DNA of 64,000 nucleotides from Candidatus Saccharimonadota bacterium (GTDB lineage Bacteria; Patescibacteriota; Saccharimonadia; Saccharimonadales; Saccharimonadaceae), in the NCBI GenBank assembly GCA_017404335.1, contig JAFRCN010000006.1:1-64000 (forward strand), written 5' to 3'. This document shows, piece after piece, positions 1,212 through 60,385 of the stretch. How positions within the stretch are numbered: the first letter of the stretch is position 1; every line of letters starts with the position of its first letter. The notes beneath the pieces are model-generated. The model worked only from the letters and a program-made list of their open reading frames with translations, was not told the DNA's origin and did not search any database. Position numbers and translations under genes: made by a program.

Positions 1212-3770
1212 TTAATTAGTTTCTTCTTCAGGAAGGACGATACCGAGGGAGGCGACGGTGTCGCCGTCGGACATTTTCATGATACGGACACCTTGCGTCG
1301 CGCGACCGAGAGTCGGGATTTCTTTCATCGCGACGCGGATAGCTTGACCCTTGGTAGACATCATAATAACTTCTTTAGCTAGCGGGTCTAGAGTGTGGAC
1401 CGCGACAATCGGACCGGTTTTTTCGGTTACCGCGGCAACCTTAATGCCGACGCCACCACGCTTATGAGGCGGGAAGTTAGAAACGAGCGTGGCCTTACCG
1501 TAGCCGTTCGCGGAAACCGCAAGAAGTTTTTGTTTCGGGTCGGTGATGACATCCATGCCGACGATTTCGTCTTTTGGACGGAGGCGCATACCACGGACGC
1601 CCATCGCGGAGCGACCCATAGCACGAACTTCTTTCTCGTTAAAGCGAGTAGCCTGGCCGGCGGAAGTAGAGATAACGATATCGTTTTCACCGGTGGTTTC
1701 TTTGACCCATTTCAGTTCGTCTCCAGCGTCTAGCTTGATGGCGATTAGACCATTACTTCTGATATTGAAGAAATCTTTGATGGCGGATTTTTTAATGGTT
1801 CCCTTTTTGGTCGCCATGAAGAGGAAGCCGTTTTCGCCGTTGTCGCCCTGTTTAATAATCGCGGTGATTTTTTCCTCTGGGTGCATATTAAGCATATTGA
1901 CAGCGGCAGTTCCCTTCGCGGCGAGCGAAGCTTGCGGAACTTCGTAAGCTTTCATCCGGAAGAGACGACCTTGATTAGTAAAGAAGAGGAGGAAGTCATG
2001 CGAAGAAGCGGTCATAATCTGAGCGATGACGTCTTCTTCTTTGGTCGTCATGCCGCGTTTGCCCTTACCCCCGCGGTTTTGCTTTCTAAAGTCGGCTTGG
2101 GGGACGCGCTTCATGTAGTTTTCGGAAGTTAAGAGGATGACGCTCTCTTCTTCGGGGATAAGCTCTTCTTCGGAGAATTTACCAACTTCGTGATTAATAA
2201 TCTTGGAACGGCGCGGATCGTCGTATTTTTCTTTAATTGCGATAAGTTCTTCTTTGACAACTCTTAAGATTTCCTGCTCGCTAGCGAGAATGGCCTCGAG
2301 TTTCTTAATCAATTCATGGAGCTGTTTTAATTCTTCTTCAATTTTGTCGCGCTCTAGGCCTTGGAGACGGCGAAGCTGCATCTGTAAGATAGCGTTAGCC
2401 TGAATCTCGGAAAGACCAAATCTCGACATGAGCTGTTTGTCGGCGTCGTCGTAAGAGGCACGGATGACTTTAATCACCTCGTCGATATTATCAAGAGCGA
2501 TTTTCAAACCCTCTAAAATGTGGGCGCGCTCTTTGGCTTTTCTAAGCTCAAATTCAGTCCTTCTTCTGATCACGATTTGGCGATGCTTGACGAATTCACT
2601 GAGAATTTCTTTGAGACCGAGGACGCGAGGCTGGATGCCGTCGACAAGGGCGAGAACGTTATAATGGAAAGTAGTCTGGAGATCGGTAAGTTTATAAAGT
2701 TGGTTCAAAATTTTCTTCGGAAAGGCGTCTTTTTTAAGCTCAATGACGACCCGAGTCTTACCACGCGCGGATTCGTTACGCGCGTCGGCGATATGAGTGA
2801 GCTTTTTATCTTGGGCAAGCTGGACAATCTTAGAAATAAGAGCTTCTTTACTAACCCCGTAAGGCATTTCGGTAATCACTATATTATAACGGCCGTTTTT
2901 GCGTTCTTCGATATTGGCGACACCGCGGATTACGACTGAACCTTTACCGGTAGCATAGGCTTGCTTCATCGGCGCGCCACCGTAGACTTCGGCACCAGTC
3001 GGAAAATCCGGACCTTTGACGTGCTTCATCAAACCTTCTAGGGAGATTTCGGGATCGTCGATTAGCGCAACGGTCGCATCGACTAGCTCGCCAAGGTTAT
3101 GCGGAGGGATATTAGTCGCCATACCAACAGCGATACCCATCTGACCGTTTAAGAGAATATTCGGAACGGCGGCCGGAAGCACGACTGGCTCCTTCTCGGT
3201 GCCATCGAAGTTGTCACGGAAATCAACTGTCTCTTTCTCGATATCGGCGAGAAGCTCGGTGCCGATTTTGTCCATTCTAGCCTCGGTATAACGGGAAGCA
3301 GCTGGCTCATCGCCGTCGGCGGAACCGAAGTTACCTTGACCTTCGACCAAGGTATAGCGCATTTTCCAAGGCTGAGCGAGGTTGACCATCGCGTCATAGA
3401 TAGAGGAATCACCGTGCGGGTGGTATTTACCCATAACTTCACCGACGATACGGGCGGACTTTACGGTTGCGTGCGGAGCTTTCCAGCCGTTTTTATTCAT
3501 GGCATATAATATACGGCGGTTAACTGGCTTTAGGCCGTCGCGGACGTCAGGTAAGGCACGGTCGATAATAACAGACATGGAATACTTTAGGAAGTAGTCT
3601 TCCATGGTGTGCTCGACCGGCTTGAGCTCTAGACCCTCAGAAATACCTTCTTCGGATCCTCCTCGCTCGCGCCCGTCGTCACGGGGCTCGCTCGTCGATT
3701 GCTCCCGTTGTCGCAAATGATCCTCAGAAGGCAATTTCTTCGGGTCTTGGTTCGTGTCATCATTCTCCAT
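1212..3770 (-). CDS. gyrA: DNA gyrase subunit A
   Basis: Breakage-reunion subunit of DNA gyrase, which introduces negative supercoils together with GyrB. The catalytic tyrosine is Y161 in [10 protein letters not shown]. The quinolone-pocket motif [10 protein letters not shown] is at 117-126. The C-terminal beta-pinwheel carries a GyrA-box-like QNRGGKG, which argues for gyrase rather than topoisomerase IV. The 852-residue length is normal, but the N-terminus is ~39 residues longer than in E. coli (Tyr122). Almost all of that excess is residues 9-47, encoded by a palindromic element (family B, 3632-3745). It follows gyrB by 14 nt and is presumably co-transcribed. Confidence 0.97.
3632..3745 (-). 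repeat. palindromic element family B, copy 1, inside gyrA
   Basis: The outer inverted arms (GACCC..AGAAAT..CCTTCT against AGAAGG..AATTTCT..GGGTC) enclose the conserved core CGCCCGTCGTCACGGGGCTC, itself a hairpin. The element is translated in frame as GyrA residues 9-47, including [10 protein letters not shown]. The same core occurs at 19587, 53592, 59556 and 60103. It lies just upstream of the conserved domain, where an extension should be tolerated. Confidence 0.85.
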
Positions 3771-10010: not shown

Positions 10011-10124
10011 CCATTTTTCGCTTTAAAAAGCCGGCAGATTGGTATTTTCTTCTTGCGAAGTGCATCTTAGGGATGAGCGAGCAAGAAAAAATGCCGAGAT
10101 GCCGGCTTTTTATGCGAAAAATGG
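10011..10124 (-). repeat. palindromic element family A, copy 1, downstream of tmRNA
   Basis: Arms CCATTTTTCGC / GCGAAAAATGG flank AAAAAGCCGGCA / TGCCGGCTTTTT, with a conserved centre (CTTGCTCGCTC and CTTCGCAAGAAG). On the minus strand it directly follows the tmRNA, overlaps its CCA end, and finishes in a U-run after the GCCGGC stem. It therefore probably also acts as the tmRNA terminator. A second copy with compensatory stem changes follows tRNA-Gly at 60506-60618. Confidence 0.8.
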
Positions 10125-10476
10125 TGGAGCTGGGGGATACTGCCTCCCCGTCCGGATTGTCACGGGATCATGATTCTACGCGCATAGTTTTCTGTTTTGT
10201 CTTAGCATATATTATCAGCTGCAGAAAACGAAACTGATAAAAGCCGTGGCTAGATTTTCGAATTATTTTTCGCCAGCTAAATAACCTTATTTCCGTGGTA
10301 TAATAATTCGCATTCTACGGAACCTTAAATACGAACCAGCCTACAAATAATTAGGCATAAGCCGGCATGTATGCAACATGCGCGGTTTTCGTGTTTTTAG
10401 CACTTATTTAATACTTACGGTATTCAATCGGCGCGCCTCACAATTGTTAACAACTCGTCTAAGCTTTGTCAGCCCC
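10122..10476 (-). ncRNA. ssrA: transfer-messenger RNA
   Basis: The 5' GGGGCTG (10476 downward) pairs over 7 bp with 3' CAGCTCC, followed by an encoded ACCA ending at 10122. The 3' part has the tmRNA hallmark GGACG before the T-arm. An internal frame starting at GCT (10401) encodes AKNTKTAHVAYMPAYA and stops at TAA (10353-10351). It ends in small hydrophobic residues, as degradation tags do. This RNA rescues stalled ribosomes with SmpB, which is not encoded in the window. The T-stem is GGGGA/TCCCC, but its loop reads GGCAGTA instead of the usual TTCRANN. The length of ~355 nt is normal. Confidence 0.9.
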
Positions 10477-13990: not shown

Positions 13991-14000
13991 GATGGGGTCG

Positions 14001-14344
14001 TGAGCCATCATTAAGCCGGGTTCTGTGCCTGGTTTAAAGGATTTATTCAGGCGATAATCATCTATCTAGACGCCATATTGCTACAGCGTTCAAGCGGTGA
14101 GCGTACGTCCTCGAGCAAAGGCTGATAGTACTCCTTGCAACGGGTAGGGTTTGCCGCCACCTCGTATCACTACGAGATGCTGTGAGCTCTTACCTCACTC
14201 TTTTCACCCTTACCGGAAAACCGGCGGTTTGGTTTCTGTGGTACTTTCCCTATTCTTGCGAACGGTCGCCGTTAGCGACTACCCTGCTCTATGTTGCCCG
14301 GACTTTCCTCTTGAGTGATCTCAAGCGATTATCTTTCAGGCTCA
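14001..14344 (-). ncRNA. rnpB: RNase P RNA
   Basis: The catalytic RNA of RNase P, which matures tRNA 5' ends. Minus-strand hallmarks are AGGAAAGTCCGGGC near the 5' end, GGTAAGAGCTCAC in the specificity domain, GGTGGCGGCAAACCC, and ACAGAACCCGGCTTA at the 3' end. P1 is formed by TGAGCC / GGCTCA, which sets the boundaries. TATAAT at 14350-14355 gives the promoter. It is convergent with rpmB. A family C palindrome begins a few bases upstream of the -10 box. Confidence 0.96.
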
Positions 14345-38659: not shown

Positions 38660-39243
38660 TTCACTCTCCCGACGGGTCCTTTCTCGGCGGGTCCTGCCGG
38701 CGACTCTCCCTCCCCAAAATTTTGCTTCGCAAACATTTTGGGGTCCCCTTCCGTCGCCGTCACCCGCCGATGAGAATCGGATGATTCCGCACCTCGATAT
38801 TTACCTTTCTGTTCTTTTAATATATTTTCAAAATCTTCAAGGGTTTTGAACTCGCGGAAGACTGAAGCGAAGCGGACGTAAGCAACTTCGTTGATTTCGG
38901 CGAGGACGTCGAGGACAGCTTCGCCGATTTGTTTACTCGTTATCTGGTCGGTGCCGTAGGCGTAGAGGATGTCAGAGGCGCGGTTGACGACGTCTTCGAT
39001 TTCGAGCTCGGAATTAAAGAACTTACCGACGCTACGTTTAACGGCGAGGAGAAGTTTATCGCGGTCAAAAATTTCTTTATTACCGCTGCGTTTAGTTACG
39101 GTAAGAGGAGGCATTTCGACTCGCTCATAGGTAGTAAAACGGCGTCCGTCGGCGGATTCGCGCCGGCGACGAATCATCGTCCCATCGACCGTTTCGCGGC
39201 TTTCTAGAACTTTGCTATCTCCGATGCGAAATTTCTGTTCCAT
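38656..39243 (-). CDS. nrdR: NrdR-like ATP-cone regulator lacking zinc cysteines
   Basis: NrdR represses ribonucleotide reductase genes when (d)ATP is bound. The ATP-cone (VTKRSGNKEIFDRDKLLLAV, EVAYVRFASVFREFKTLEDF) is intact and the linker RRRR..RFTTYERVE is recognisable. All four zinc-ribbon cysteines are missing, however: MEQKFRIGDSKV stands where MxCPxC..DTKV is usual, and RRRRESADGRRF replaces RRRRxCxxCxxRF. The protein has no cysteine at all. Residues ~158-195 are encoded by a family D element, making it ~40 residues longer than usual. It is directly downstream of ftsZ. Confidence 0.85.
   Translation of the reverse strand: MEQKFRIGDSKVLESRETVDGTMIRRRRESADGRRFTTYERVEMPPLTVTKRSGNKEIFDRDKLLLAVKRSVGKFFNSELEIEDVVNRASDILYAYGTDQITSKQIGEAVLDVLAEINEVAYVRFASVFREFKTLEDFENILKEQKGKYRGAESSDSHRRVTATEGDPKMFAKQNFGEGESPAGPAEKGPVGRVK
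38670..38770 (-). repeat. palindromic element family D, copy 2, in the 3' end of nrdR
   Basis: TCGGCGGGT / ACCCGCCGA encloses GGCGAC / GTCGCC and an inner hairpin around CCCCAAAATTTTG..CATTTTGGGG. A partial tandem repeat of the left arm (CGACGGGTCCT) lies at 38670-38680. The inner part matches copy 1 at 17705. It is translated as the NrdR tail, including TEGDPKMFAKQNFG. Confidence 0.82.
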
Positions 39244-40483: not shown

Positions 40484-40571
40484 TTAGTCGACGGGTCCTG
40501 TCGTCGCCTCCTCCCCCGCTCGGCTCTCGCGGGGGACCCCCTCCGGCGACACCACCCGTCGACGATTAAAA
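40484..40571. repeat. palindromic element family D, copy 3, between ftsA and ftsZ
   Basis: Arms TTTTAGTCGACGGGT / ACCCGTCGACGATTAAAA include the ftsA stop codon. Inside are TCGCC / GGCGA and CCCCCGC / GCGGGGG. The central ~65 bp are identical to copy 4 (43207), while the outermost bases differ in a compensated way. It may terminate ftsA transcription before the separate ftsZ promoter. Confidence 0.82.
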
Positions 40572-41798
40572 CTTAGAGAATAGCTTTTTTATAAAGCCGG
40601 GGGCCTTAGTCAGTTTCGGGAGCTTTTTCGGCTTTTTTGCGGCAATTTCGGACGCGCCTCCTTCTTCGGCGGCGAGGAGAGCAAGGCCAACTGCGACGGC
40701 GAATTCAGGCTTTTCGATAGAGTCGGAGACTCCGCCGAGACCCTTCGGAACGCCGATCTTTACGGAGGCCTCGAGAGCATCTTTGACAAATAAATCTAAA
40801 TCGCGCATTTTGGCGCCACCACCGGTAAGGACGATTCCTTCGGGGAGACGTTGGTCGTATTTGGCGACTTTAAGTTTTTTTCTGATTTCGCCAAATATCT
40901 CATCGAGGCGAGCCTTTACGACTTCTTCAACTTCTTTTCGTTCGAAGACTCGTTCTTTGCCTTCTTTGCCGATACGGATTACGGCGGATTTCTCGGAGTT
41001 GAAATTGCCAGTAACGAAACGTTGCTTGATTTCCTCCGCCATTTCGGGATCAATCGCGAGGACTATCGCGAGGTCGTTGGTGATATTATTCGAACCAGCG
41101 GGGACGACGCCGAGGTATTGGAGGTCACCTTCTTCGTAGACGGCGACAGAGGTGGTCGTGGCGCCGAAGTCAATAACGGCGACGCCGTTTTCTTTTTGGC
41201 GCTCGGTTAGGACGGCTTTCGCAGCAGCGACGACGCTAGGGATTAACCTTTCGGCGTTCACATCGGCGGCAGCAGTGGCTTTTTTAAGATTCTCAGCGTT
41301 CGGAGTTAAAGCGGAGATGACGTTCGCGCGCATCTCGAGACGGGCACCGGACATACCGAGGGGGTTTTTAATACCGCCTTGGCCATCGAGGGCGTATTCG
41401 AGAGGAACAACATCTAGAACATCGCGGTTTGCCGGGATACGGCCCGAAACGGCGACGTCTTCGACGCGGGCGAGGTCGTCGACGGAAATTTCGTGTTCGA
41501 CCGTGCCGACCGCGATCATGCCTTCGGTTTTTGTAGAAATAACACTAGAACCATTAATCGAGACAAAAGCGGAACGGACGTCGTAGCCACCCATGCGCTC
41601 GGCTTCACCGAGCATTTTATCGATTGCGCCGGCGGGGCCAGCGAGATTTGCAGGGACGCCCTTTCGCATGCCAGCGGATTTGCCTTCGTTATAGCCGACT
41701 ATGGCTAGTTCGCCGTTTTGATTGACACTAGCGATGGCGGCACGGACGTTTTCCGTCCCGACGTCTAGACCAGTTACGAAACGCTTATCGTTATCCAT
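40566..41798 (-). CDS. ftsA: cell division protein FtsA
   Basis: Actin-like membrane tether for FtsZ. 410 residues with GLDVGTENVRAAIA at the N-terminus, the 1C domain, AVIDFGATTTSVAVYEEG, GIVLTGGGAKMRDLD, and a C-terminal amphipathic basic helix (GFIKKLFSKF) for membrane binding. TATAAT (41805-41810) ends 6 nt before the ATG, so it is probably leaderless. Confidence 0.96.
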   Translation of the reverse strand: MDNDKRFVTGLDVGTENVRAAIASVNQNGELAIVGYNEGKSAGMRKGVPANLAGPAGAIDKMLGEAERMGGYDVRSAFVSINGSSVISTKTEGMIAVGTVEHEISVDDLARVEDVAVSGRIPANRDVLDVVPLEYALDGQGGIKNPLGMSGARLEMRANVISALTPNAENLKKATAAADVNAERLIPSVVAAAKAVLTERQKENGVAVIDFGATTTSVAVYEEGDLQYLGVVPAGSNNITNDLAIVLAIDPEMAEEIKQRFVTGNFNSEKSAVIRIGKEGKERVFERKEVEEVVKARLDEIFGEIRKKLKVAKYDQRLPEGIVLTGGGAKMRDLDLFVKDALEASVKIGVPKGLGGVSDSIEKPEFAVAVGLALLAAEEGGASEIAAKKPKKLPKLTKAPGFIKKLFSKF

Positions 41799-41815
41799 AG
41801 TTTAATTATACATAT

Positions 41816-42592
41816 TTAATCCGGTAATGTCAAAACTTCGTAGCCGTCGTTTGTGACGAGGACGGTATGCTCAAAGTGGCAGCCGATGGAGCCATCTTTC
41901 ATTTTTACCGTCCAATTATCGGATTTGTCGACGTAGTTCGCGGGTTTGCCGAGGGAGGACATCGGTTCGATACAAATCGTATCGCCTTCGACGAGCTTGT
42001 AGCCATGACCTTTTTTGCCGTAATTCGGAACCTCGGGGGCGGAATGCATTTTTCGGCCGATGCCGTGGCCGATATAATTCTCAATCACGCCGAGGTGGCC
42101 TTTCCTTAAGACCTTTTCGACAGCAGAGCCGATGTCGCCAATCGTCGCGCCGGGCTTGACCTGCTCGATCCCCTCCCACAGCGCCGATTCGGTGACGGAA
42201 ATCATTTTTTTAACGGCGGGGGAGCCTTTCTCGCCAACCAGCATGGTAAATGCCGAATCGGTAAAATAACCCTTATAATAGATATCAAGATCGAAGGAGA
42301 CTTTGTCGCCCTCCTCGAGAGGCTCGTCGGTGGGGGCGCCATGGACGAGCTCATCGTTGATCGAAATACATATCGCGCCGGGAAATTCCTCGTCGAGCAT
42401 ATCATAGGCGACTTTAGCGCCGCGTCTGACGATTTCGGAGCGGACCCAGGCGTCGATTTCTTTTCCGGTCATACCGGGTTTGACGTAGTTTTTTAAATCT
42501 CTTAGGAGATTACCGAGGATTTTACCGCCTTCGCGCATCGCTTCGATTTTGTACTTCAGAGTCTTTTCGTCGACGGTGTTTTTATTCTCCAT
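41816..42592 (-). CDS. map: methionine aminopeptidase, type I
   Basis: Removes the initiator Met. The five metal ligands are present: D..D in FDLDIYYKGYFTDSAF, H in GHGIGRKMHSAPEVPNYG, E in CIEPM and E in CHFEHTVLVT. The start MENKNTVDEKTLK at 42592 overlaps the last codons of adk by 11 nt. The longer frame from 42664 would lie inside adk. The length of ~258 residues is normal. Confidence 0.95.
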   Translation of the reverse strand: MENKNTVDEKTLKYKIEAMREGGKILGNLLRDLKNYVKPGMTGKEIDAWVRSEIVRRGAKVAYDMLDEEFPGAICISINDELVHGAPTDEPLEEGDKVSFDLDIYYKGYFTDSAFTMLVGEKGSPAVKKMISVTESALWEGIEQVKPGATIGDIGSAVEKVLRKGHLGVIENYIGHGIGRKMHSAPEVPNYGKKGHGYKLVEGDTICIEPMSSLGKPANYVDKSDNWTVKMKDGSIGCHFEHTVLVTNDGYEVLTLPD

Positions 42593-43175
42593 AGCTTTTT
42601 TCGATTTCTTCCCCGTTGACATCTTCGGATTGCTCGGTCGCGGAGGGGTTAAATTTTTTAACAATTTCTACTAGACGGTCGGTTACTTCGTCGATAGTGC
42701 CGACGCCGTCTACGCGCTCAATTGGAATGTTTTTAGACTCTAACATGGGTAAAATTGAACAAATATTTTGTTCAAAAATTTCAAAACGGCGGTCGATGCT
42801 TTCCTTTTCTTTGTCGTCGTCGCGACCACGGAGGGCGAGACGGTCGTAGAGCTCTTCTTTTGGGACTTCGAGAATAATCGCGCCGTCGATTTTTTCGGGG
42901 ATGTGATCCATCATCCATTCGGCCTGATATTTAGAACGAGGGTAACCGTCTAGAATAACGTCGAAACCCTCGGCTTCGGACTTTTCGATCGCGCGGTTCA
43001 TCAGCCGAATCACGTCTTCGTCGGGGATGAGGAGGCCTTTATTGATGGTTTCCTCGTAACCGCCCGTATCGCGAATCACCTGGCCGACTGAAAGCCAACG
43101 CCAGCCGAAAATTTCGGATAAAGCTTTGCCCTGGGTGCCTTTGCCTGACCCAGCGAGGCCGAATAATATAATCAT
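42582..43175 (-). CDS. adk: adenylate kinase-like nucleoside monophosphate kinase
   Basis: 197 residues. P-loop FGLAGSGKGTQGKAL, NMP-binding region, DGYPRSKYQAEWM (the Adk DGFPR motif) and a short LID (RGRDDDKEKESIDRRFE) without zinc cysteines. It balances AMP, ADP and ATP. The adk-map order is the conserved one from the spc region. AAAGGAG and a TATAAT precede the ATG. Confidence 0.9.
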   Translation of the reverse strand: MIILFGLAGSGKGTQGKALSEIFGWRWLSVGQVIRDTGGYEETINKGLLIPDEDVIRLMNRAIEKSEAEGFDVILDGYPRSKYQAEWMMDHIPEKIDGAIILEVPKEELYDRLALRGRDDDKEKESIDRRFEIFEQNICSILPMLESKNIPIERVDGVGTIDEVTDRLVEIVKKFNPSATEQSEDVNGEEIEKSYGE

Positions 43176-43206
43176 AATTCTCCTTTATGCCATTATATCA
43201 CATTTG

Positions 43207-43283
43207 GCGGACGGGTCCTGTCGTCGCCTCCTCCCCCGCTCGGCTCTCGCGGGGGACCCCCTCCGGCGACACCACCCGTCCGC
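43207..43283. repeat. palindromic element family D, copy 4, upstream of adk
   Basis: GCGGACGGGT / ACCCGTCCGC surrounds the same centre as copy 3 (CCTCCTCCCCCGCTCGGCTC, GCGGGGGACCCCCTCC). It sits between the rpsU terminator and the adk promoter. Confidence 0.82.
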
Positions 43284-43291
43284 GATATTGA

Positions 43292-53048: not shown

Positions 53049-54034
53049 TTCTTTCCTTTTTTAATTTCAATGGTTTTAATGTTTTCGAACGTGCGGTATT
53101 CACCTTCGGCTTGAAGTTCGACGGTCGAAGGTTTTAGAAATTCTAATTTGTCGCCTTCGGTTTCGGTACCAGGAGTACGGATTAAAATGCTTTTTACCAT
53201 TAGCTTAAAAAGGCGCCAGAAGTTCGTCAGTCGGTCGGTCATACTGCGGAATACTATCGGGTCGTGATAATCTTCGCCACCCTTCATCACGCGACACATG
53301 GATTTACCGCTGACGGCGGCGTAGTCGGAAGTTTTTTTGTGTTGCAGTTTCCCGTTTAGCTTAAAGTCAGGGATGAACTGCTTTTTGTGGCGGTTTTTGA
53401 AATACCATTTAACGAGAGCTAGATACGAGCGCCAGGAGCTTTTATGACCTTTTTGCATGGATTTACGAAATTTCGGCTCGTCGAACAACTCGCAAGCTTC
53501 GGCGGTCATGCCGATTGTCACGTAACACGTTGCATAGCGGAAAAACTTGCCGTCGACATGAATTTCTAATGGAAAAAGTTCCGAAACGCTTGGACAAACA
53601 ACTCTCGACGCGCTTCGCTCGCGCCCGTCGTTACGGGGCTCGCTCGCTCGTTCCCCTCCCCGTTGGTCGGGTATGGTCTCAAGTTGTTTGTCCTGCGCGT
53701 CAATAAACAAATCCTCGAATTTCTTGGCGCCAAGGGTTCTTGCAAGGTCGTTGAAGTTGCCGTAGGGCAAGACCGCGAGAGTGACATCTTTGTTCGAGCG
53801 GAGAATACCGTTCGCGGAGATGCTGGCCGTCGCGTCGCCGCCGGCAGATAGGACAAGGTCGCCGTCTTTGAGAATTTTCGCGAGATTTTTGGCGTTTTCG
53901 TCGACATCAGTCGGCTCGACTTCGTACTTCCCTACCATGTAGCCTTTTAAGTTTTTAGTTTTGTCGAGAACTTCTTTTTTAACATCAAGAAACCGCGAAG
54001 AACGGGGATTATAAACTATAAATAAACGTTTCAT
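53024..54034 (-). CDS. diacylglycerol/lipid kinase family protein with family B insertion
   Basis: 336 residues. DAGK catalytic domain ([31 protein letters not shown] as the GGDGT-like motif, VLPYGNFNDLARTLG) and the beta-sandwich second domain. Residues ~115-148, translated from the palindrome at 53592-53692, lie in the loop between domains. It phosphorylates diacylglycerol or a related lipid. The ATG overlaps the rpoD stop by one base (TAATG). Confidence 0.85.
   Translation of the reverse strand: MKRLFIVYNPRSSRFLDVKKEVLDKTKNLKGYMVGKYEVEPTDVDENAKNLAKILKDGDLVLSAGGDATASISANGILRSNKDVTLAVLPYGNFNDLARTLGAKKFEDLFIDAQDKQLETIPDQRGGERASEPRNDGRERSASRVVCPSVSELFPLEIHVDGKFFRYATCYVTIGMTAEACELFDEPKFRKSMQKGHKSSWRSYLALVKWYFKNRHKKQFIPDFKLNGKLQHKKTSDYAAVSGKSMCRVMKGGEDYHDPIVFRSMTDRLTNFWRLFKLMVKSILIRTPGTETEGDKLEFLKPSTVELQAEGEYRTFENIKTIEIKKGKKCLKVIEI
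53592..53692 (-). repeat. palindromic element family B, copy 5, inside the lipid-kinase gene
   Basis: GGACAAACAACTC / GAGTTGTTTGTCC-like arms (right arm AAGTTGTTTGTCC) hold the core CGCCCGTCGTTACGGGGCTC. It is translated as RASEPRNDGRERSAS in frame. The inner second hairpin is less clear than in copies 2-4. Confidence 0.8.
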
Positions 54035-58574: not shown

Positions 58575-60385
58575 TACATCTCCTCCGGGATTTCGATTCC
58601 TAAGATTTTTAGTCCGTGGGTCATGACGTCGAGGTAGGCTTTGACGAGTTTGAGACGGGCGGATTCTTCAGCGCTTCCGAGGACAGGACAATTTTCGTAA
58701 AATCTACTGAAAGTTTGAGAAAGTTCGTATAAGAAGTTGGCAAGTTTGTGCGGAGCAAGTTCGCTTACCGCCTCGTCTAAGACTGTTTGATATTCTATTA
58801 TTCTTTTGGCCAATTTTTTTTCATATATATTATATATATAATTATCTATATTCTTTTCATTTTTATTCGATAGAATCTTTTTTGCGCGGACGCAGGAGTA
58901 GAGTAGGTACGGGCCGGAGTTGCCGGTCATTTTGACGGATTCTTTCGGGTCGAAAATGATGTCGCCGCCCATTTTGTATTTTAAAAAGGCGTACTTTGTC
59001 GCGGCGAGGGCGACAGTTTCGTCGGTAGAATTATACTCGGATTTTAGTTCGTCGCGGACGAGGTCGAGGACGTCGACGGCTTTTAAGAAATTACCCTTTC
59101 TAGAGGACATTTTAACGTTCCCCGGAAGCTTAACGAGACCATGGGTTAAGTGGGTCGTTTTTTTGACTAAGTCGGGGGCGTATTGCTCGATAGATTTTAG
59201 GACGACTGCCATGTAATCTTTTTGTTCGTTGCCGGTGATAACGACGGATTTGTCGAAATGGTAGTCGGCGTATTTTTGGAAGATGAGGCCGACGTCTTTA
59301 GTTTCATAAGTCGGGACGCCTTCTTTATTGACTAAGACACGGGTATGAAGACCGTATTTTTCGCCGTTAAAGATAATCGCGCCGTCGGAGTATTCGTAGA
59401 TGCCTTTTTCTAATTGCTCTTTGACTTTTTGTAAACCGAGATTAGCAACAGTAGACTCTGGATAAAACTTGTCGAACTTTACACCAATAGAATTATAAAA
59501 TTGATTAAAATAATCATAAGATAATTCCCTGCCTTTCCAATATAATTCTGTAAGGTCGGGGACCGAGAAGGCATCTTTCTCGGAACGCTCCCTCGCGCCC
59601 GTCGTTACGGGGCTCGGTCGCTCCGTATTTTCCCCGTCGGAAAATATGCTCCTCGAAAGAGCTTTCCTCGGTCCCCCGGCTTCATTAATTCGGTAGATTT
59701 CTTTGTTTAACTCCGTGATTTCGGCTTTGGCGGTTTCGTCGGTGTCGTAGAGAGCGGTGCCTTCGATGTAGCACTTCGCGATGTCTTCGATGGTCAGATT
59801 TTCTAGCGATTTATTTTTTAGCGCGTACATGGTCTTCGCGACGTGAAGACCGACATCGCCGCCGAAATTCGCGCGGATAACTTTCGCGCCGGCGTATTCG
59901 TATAAATTAGAAATTGCGTTGCCGACAATACTCGTATATAAATGACCGACATGGAGGACTTTAAAAGGATTCGGGTCGCTGAATTCGCAGATAACTGTCT
60001 TGCCTTTATACTCGTCCGAACTGAAATCGCTAGATAAATTATTAATCTTTTTAGATAAAAAGTCATCAGATAAAGTAAAATTCAGAAAACCAGGAGGCGT
60101 AAGGCTCACGATAGCGCTTTTTCGGAACGCTCCCTCACGCCCGCCGTCGCGGGGTTCGGTCGCTCCGTATTTGGCCCGTCGCCAAATATGCTCCTCAAAA
60201 GCGCTATTCGCGAGCCTTTCGGCGATGGTCATCGGGCTTTTATGTAAATCTTTGGCGAGTTTGAGGGGGGCGTTCGAGGAGTAGTCGGCGGGGATATTCT
60301 CGGGAGAGGGAGTGAGGTCGGGGTCAAAATCGAGACCGTAGAGGTCGTGAATAACTTTTTTAAGACTTTCCCGCAGTTCTTCCAT
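58574..60385 (-). CDS. argS: arginyl-tRNA synthetase carrying two palindromic insertions
   Basis: Class I synthetase. Motifs: HVGHL for HIGH near residue 150, KMSSRKGN for KMSKS, and the DALR anticodon domain at the C-terminus. 603 residues, longer than CPR relatives owing to two family B elements: residues ~57-95 (near the end of the N-terminal add-on domain) and ~236-277 (catalytic domain insert). They are read in different frames (GATEPRDGGREG and RPSPVTTGARER). TATAAT (60392-60397) ends 6 nt before the ATG. It heads an operon with orn. Confidence 0.94.
   Translation of the reverse strand: MEELRESLKKVIHDLYGLDFDPDLTPSPENIPADYSSNAPLKLAKDLHKSPMTIAERLANSAFEEHIWRRAKYGATEPRDGGREGAFRKSAIVSLTPPGFLNFTLSDDFLSKKINNLSSDFSSDEYKGKTVICEFSDPNPFKVLHVGHLYTSIVGNAISNLYEYAGAKVIRANFGGDVGLHVAKTMYALKNKSLENLTIEDIAKCYIEGTALYDTDETAKAEITELNKEIYRINEAGGPRKALSRSIFSDGENTERPSPVTTGARERSEKDAFSVPDLTELYWKGRELSYDYFNQFYNSIGVKFDKFYPESTVANLGLQKVKEQLEKGIYEYSDGAIIFNGEKYGLHTRVLVNKEGVPTYETKDVGLIFQKYADYHFDKSVVITGNEQKDYMAVVLKSIEQYAPDLVKKTTHLTHGLVKLPGNVKMSSRKGNFLKAVDVLDLVRDELKSEYNSTDETVALAATKYAFLKYKMGGDIIFDPKESVKMTGNSGPYLLYSCVRAKKILSNKNEKNIDNYIYNIYEKKLAKRIIEYQTVLDEAVSELAPHKLANFLYELSQTFSRFYENCPVLGSAEESARLKLVKAYLDVMTHGLKILGIEIPEEM
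59556..59678 (-). repeat. palindromic element family B, copy 4, inside argS
   Basis: GGGGACCGAGAAGGCATCTTTCTCGGAACG-like outer arm pairs with GAAAGAGCTTTCCTCGGTCCCC. The core CGCCCGTCGTTACGGGGCTC is followed by TATTTTCC / GGAAAATA. It is translated in a different frame from the other copies (RPSPVTTGARER). Confidence 0.88.
60103..60216 (-). repeat. palindromic element family B, copy 3, inside argS
   Basis: Arms GGCTC..ATAGCGCTTTT / AAAAGCGCTAT..GAGCC hold the core CGCCCGCCGTCGCGGGGTTC and hairpin TATTTGG / CCAAATA. The TTTTCC/GGAAAA pair of copy 4 is replaced by TTTGGC/GCCAAA here, a compensatory change. Confidence 0.88.

Follow-up and report, generated by a model that had tools for sequence, protein, structure and literature searches.

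The four GC-rich palindromes in this window (the whole 64,000-nt stretch of a Candidatus Saccharimonadota genome that was analysed) are probably copies of a dispersed, non-autonomous DNA element whose active form is a folded single strand; we put the probability of this reading at roughly 0.64. The element is ~80-105 nt long and forms a multi-copy family with a defined structure. Its orientation follows replication, it is inserted in frame within genes, and at orthologous sites it is present in some genomes and absent from others. We located all four palindromes of the preliminary description with a covariance model, and they and the parts of copy 3 are as follows:

17701..17795, + strand: copy 1, C/GT subtype with an AT-rich inner hairpin; intergenic, motif strand +
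38669..38680, + strand: truncated left arm CCGACGGGTCCT, immediately left of copy 2
38681..38773, + strand: copy 2, C/GT subtype; intergenic, with the top model score in the window (81 bits)
40485..40565, + strand: copy 3, T/AC subtype, in the ftsA/ftsZ gap
40487..40492, + strand: left outer arm of copy 3, GTCGAC, pairing with 40558-40563; hypervariable among copies
40493..40503, + strand: conserved block of copy 3, GGGTCCTGTCG, in which CCT is an invariant 3-nt bulge
40504..40508, + strand: left arm of the inner stem of copy 3, TCGCC, pairing with 40545-40549
40550..40557, + strand: conserved right block of copy 3, CACCACCC
43205..43285, + strand: copy 4, T/AC subtype, between the terminator of the upstream gene and the -10 box of adk; core as in copy 3

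The relationships first described among these copies hold. Copies 3 and 4, said to share about 65 bases, are identical over 71 nt (GAC...GTC) with an exact 65-nt core, and their outer arms differ in the compensated manner claimed (TCGAC/GTCGA vs CGGAC/GTCCG). Copies 1 and 2 do form a second subtype, both carrying the TTTTGCTTCGCAAA inner hairpin. Left-arm fragments like that beside copy 2 also precede intact copies in L034, L252 and L255. The window palindromes are far beyond chance, given their fold z-scores (-4.1 to -8.4, with 0 shuffles folding as well as the window-type copies) and model E-values (1e-10 to 1e-13). Both strands fold far better than shuffles, whether as RNA or as DNA.

On the motif strand, the element reads n(3-19)-CGGGT-CCT-GYcG-[5-9 bp]-hairpin-[5-9 bp]-CRYC-ACCCG-n'(3-19), and the + strand order in the window copies is outer arm-GGGTCCTGYCG-inner stem-apical hairpin-inner stem'-CRYCACCC-outer arm'. 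This conserved frame encloses two stems that are free in sequence and always complementary, along with a variable apical hairpin. Three combinations predominate at the Y and RY positions (C with GT, T with AC and T with GC). On the opposite strand, a three-base AGG bulge is invariant in all 89 model matches, and a single A stands opposite a single G in 86 of them. In the fitted alignment, 93.9% of cells are paired and 424 are double-changed, compared with 134 +/- 14 in shuffles, while sliding the partner by 1-3 columns lowers pairing to only 35-43%; an unfitted alignment left the covariation result unchanged. Parts of the element are also found in differing combinations. Among copies in the source genome that share the same AT-rich apical block, there are four inner stems and several different outer arms, and arms and cores likewise vary in combination in Roizmanbacteria. 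One Omnitrophota copy (L365:3026-3099) has outer arms that form an inverted repeat of 19 bp unique to it.

Watson-Crick pairs fill 667 cells of the variable stems and wobble pairs only 4, placing G-U below 1%. Since RNA helices normally tolerate G-U, this near-absence would suggest either a hairpin of DNA or some copying mechanism under which the arms stay exactly complementary; judged by its sequences, the element looks to have been selected as DNA rather than RNA. The same counts bear on the suggestion that the palindromes are Rho-independent terminators or mRNA-stability hairpins. They are strong GC-rich hairpins, some directly adjoining gene ends, but the window copies have a T-run on neither strand, open reading frames containing copies are read from both strands, and copy 4 sits between a separate terminator and a promoter. 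The terminator claim thus finds no support, as a T-tract is missing and orientation tracks replication rather than genes, while RNA stability is disfavoured by the scarcity of G-U pairs and the many copies in coding sequence. We consider either role scarcely credible.

The preliminary description had proposed a genome-wide search and had raised the possibility that copies occur only here. They do not: the search revealed a dispersed repeat family, with 25 copies in the 686-kb source genome by a covariance model based on 42 varied sequences, and relatives also carry the element. An 11-base pattern alone gave 22 matches in this genome and 0 for the reversed control. Within the genus, 63 of 118 congeners are carriers, with copy numbers from 0 to 25, and 70 of 295 genomes in the family are positive by the strict pattern. 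The model also found 1 to 30 copies apiece in 21 distant carriers, and in at least eight other lineages nearly every genome tested has several copies. Among the named genomes that we scanned, convincing copies with both stems paired, outer and inner, came from Saccharibacteria, Omnitrophota, other Patescibacteria, Deltaproteobacteria, Krumholzibacteriia, Acidobacteria, Gemmatimonadetes and others. Some other matches, the Streptomyces ones for example, have unpaired flanks and are clearly due to chance. One Gemmatimonadetes genome (G317) has the element in four tandem copies with a period of ~139 nt (L360:2864-3363). Searches of plasmids and phages found no element, and the 10 exact pattern matches in 2.9 million viral contigs all lack a paired outer stem and represent chance background. 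Rfam 15 gave no match at gathering or relaxed thresholds, and the element is not described in the open-access literature that we searched by sequence string and topic.

The orientation of the copies is closely linked to replication. Of 50 copies in five Saccharibacteria species, 49 have the motif on the G-rich (leading-sense) strand (p ~1e-13), made up of 24/25 in the source genome, judged by contig skew, and 25/25 in the other four species. Third-position GC skew is uniform within each contig (positive in C2, C4 and C6, negative in C3 and C5), and polarity is kept on C4 though most of its genes run the opposite way. The count is limited to skewed genomes, those with low skew (Roizmanbacteria and others) being uninformative, and in one Omnitrophota genome all 9 copies are polarised, but this is confounded with gene direction. 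The G-rich strand is usually the leading strand. If so here, where leading and lagging were assigned from GC skew and not from a mapped origin, the motif sequence is exposed on the lagging-strand template. The four window copies had been said to share an orientation relative to transcription. This is true within the window, but elsewhere copies are read from either strand; with the element aligned to the replication strand and the minus strand holding most window genes, the two coincide here, and the shared orientation is hence tied to replication, not transcription.

Such near-absolute polarity, together with the strong conservation of the bulge and mismatch, would also be expected of a hairpin that is not selfish but has been selected to give a polar signal on the lagging-strand template, comparable to KOPS, Chi or a primosome assembly site. 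Yet about half of the congeners lack the element, copy number ranges as widely as given above, and the copies often lie inside essential genes at sites that are not conserved across the genus. An oriented chromosomal function therefore seems improbable to us.

Many copies lie inside genes, and we set aside early gene-orientation statistics once this became clear. We counted a copy as intragenic if an open frame of 150 aa or more ran through it and left 50 codons to either side, and this applied to 33 of the 88 copies in Saccharibacteria (~38%). In the source genome, 9/25 copies are in frame within conserved, Pfam-recognised proteins: a thioredoxin reductase-like protein (trxB), CysS, QueA, Tgt, an IscS-like cysteine desulfurase, a pseudouridine synthase, FemAB, a penicillin-binding protein and PriA. 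The copies in queA and tgt are only 0.9 kb apart, each in frame. Pfam domains run across the insert or flank it on both sides, and uninserted orthologues exist for FemAB (L179), IscS (L113) and QueA (L024 and L186). Each intragenic insert adds ~26-32 aa, and the peptide GDGDGRGPQNVLRSKNFGEGESPAGPV is common to the inserts in Tgt, an RsuA-like synthase and a penicillin-binding protein. Copy length falls in one class modulo 3 in 22 of the 33 intragenic copies compared with 18 of the other 55 (p = 0.004), and two typical copies, when translated, have at least five of six frames open. AlphaFold renders the IscS insert as a loop with pLDDT <50 at residues 85-105, with most of the enzyme modelled confidently. 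Copies in essential genes may survive because they leave the frame intact and protrude from the protein as a disordered loop, a view already put forward for Rickettsia palindromic elements. Separately, motif matches in L071, L117 and L134 lie in frame in proteins resembling pyruvate dehydrogenase E2 linkers.

Comparison of orthologous sites shows both presence or absence of the element and differing interiors at one site. In most congeners, the adk promoter gap and the ftsA/ftsZ gap hold no copy; in a few they are filled at the same point with different cores. The same codons of IscS hold a T-type core in the source genome and a C-type core in L156. At the adk and FemAB sites we could rule out that the outer arms derive from the target, as they are missing from the empty sites, and the arms there therefore belong to the element. 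No target-site duplication could be defined, because the congeners are only ~75% identical and filled and empty sites were compared at only ~65-80% identity. Persisting sites with changed cores are either hot spots or old insertions whose cores were replaced by conversion, and we favour the latter: to judge from the aligned sequences, ectopic conversion rather than fresh insertion could account for shared sites with different cores. Cores would then be exchanged between copies while insertion sites persist. A third, different insert at the same position of IscS in the orthologues of G348 and G386 (L386 and L380) suggests a tolerant hot spot.

Such exchange is also what would be expected of a host-driven repeat with no dedicated enzyme, in which template switching at replication and ectopic gene conversion at hairpins spread and homogenise the copies and keep their arms complementary. 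The swapped cores at persisting orthologous sites (IscS, the adk gap and the ftsZ gap), the one AT-rich apical block with four inner stems, the truncated left arms adjoining intact copies, and a genome with no Y1 or integron-type enzyme all fit this explanation. Alone, however, it leaves insertion at new sites and spread across phyla unexplained, and we regard it as rather unlikely, albeit worth serious consideration. A mobile hairpin remains the preferred reading; it would be mobilised in single-stranded form at the lagging-strand template by an enzyme or a host process.

We found no gene that could mobilise the element. The REP-type (Y1) transposase sought at the suggestion of the preliminary description had no match in the source genome, and only 5 of 118 congeners have any, among them a single element carrier (G381, with a fragment). 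Y1 genes are present in 12 of 22 distant carriers, but those located do not systematically have element copies next to them. Mobilisation by a RAYT/Y1 transposase, as for classical REP sequences, would fit the short palindromes, and lagging-strand use is known for IS200/IS605 (PMC6006769). Nonetheless, the GTAG/GTGG foot is absent from the hairpin base in the conserved sequences inspected, and with so few Y1 genes among the congeners this explanation is largely refuted and very improbable. Integron-like attC sites are likewise folded single-strand sites with unpaired bases, and replication polarity and the tandem array in one genome would suit them. But the RYYYAAC/GTTRRRY core is absent, which refutes attC on its defining site, and the copies are dispersed rather than arrayed; no integron-type integrase accompanies the element, and in a count across the 118 congeners the source genome has only one tyrosine recombinase. 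We give this explanation practically no weight. Among the neighbours of copies at 55 loci in other phyla, only housekeeping genes recur. The palindromes had also been proposed as transposition targets, which is right in spirit, although the hairpin looks like the mobile element itself and not merely a target.

A second palindromic family, with a CGCCCGTCGTTACGGGGCTCG core and outer arms varying by copy, occurs in the window at 3663-3714, 19606-19698, 53615-53666, 59577-59669 and 60119-60211. Two of its copies are in frame in a 603-aa ORF resembling an arginyl-tRNA synthetase (putative), one is in a 336-aa ORF, and another copy is in queA (L295). Leading-strand polarity is common to 7/8 copies in the sequence examined. 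The window also has tmRNA and RNase P RNA genes (10122-10476 and 13997-14344, respectively), neither of which overlaps a copy of the main element. In Rickettsia, these two RNA genes can carry palindromic elements (RPEs).

Frequent in-frame placement of selfish palindromes inside protein genes is known chiefly from reports on Rickettsia and Wolbachia, and can now be extended to the ultra-small Saccharibacteria. Here it comes with a recognisable sequence frame common to many phyla and with a near-absolute link to the direction of replication. This link makes the movement of such palindromes, a long-standing question, directly testable, as the predicted substrate of the mover is single-stranded DNA at the fork. 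There is also a consequence for annotation, since essential enzymes in these genomes have 26-32 aa inserts of repeat origin, and the findings bear on how streamlined genomes tolerate repeats. It is possible, though we propose it only tentatively, that the element represents a so far undescribed class of mobile hairpins of single-strand DNA, spread across phyla. These would insert at the replication fork with fixed polarity through a mover that is neither Y1 nor an integrase, would have arms that vary freely yet always stay complementary, and would add peptides to essential enzymes of reduced-genome bacteria.

Several known systems share some of these features. IS200/IS605 members, which act on the lagging-strand template (PMC6006769), and RAYTs resemble the element in using hairpins, but the carrier genome here has no Y1 enzyme and we saw no guide tetranucleotide. 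The CGTC- and GTAG-tagged REP superfamilies are short dispersed palindromes found in several phyla, the CGTC repeats having no transposase (PMC3733652). Tagged REPs are 20-40 bp with an unpaired terminal tag, and CGTC repeats have an 8-9 bp stem and a 4-5 nt loop, whereas CGTC is here internal, between the two stems of a bulged two-stem hairpin with an apical hairpin. Bacterial MITEs (ERIC, Correia and YPAL) are non-autonomous repeats of ~100-200 bp with open frames sometimes fused to genes (PMC2229807). The element is similarly non-autonomous with open frames, but has no conserved terminal inverted repeat, its outer arms varying by copy.

The closest likeness is to RPEs, small palindromes of 100-150 bp that occur both intergenically and in frame in conserved genes, with no transposase identified (PMC2229807, PMC10969869, PMC3767692). 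RPE-4, -6 and -7 have a very similar pattern of persisting sites with changing cores (PMC3767692). Like the RPEs and the Wolbachia palindromic elements, the element is a small palindrome between genes and in frame inside them, has hit queA, has differing subtypes at the same site in orthologues, and is without a known transposase. Unlike RPEs, it is shorter (~80-105 nt), has the conserved CGGGTCCTGYCG/CRYCACCCG frame and a demonstrated replication polarity, and its named hosts, from scans made outside Rickettsiales, are Saccharibacteria, Omnitrophota and others. On a likeness to RPEs drawn from their descriptions, the best reading of the family is probably as an RPE-like, replication-polarised superfamily of mobile palindromes.
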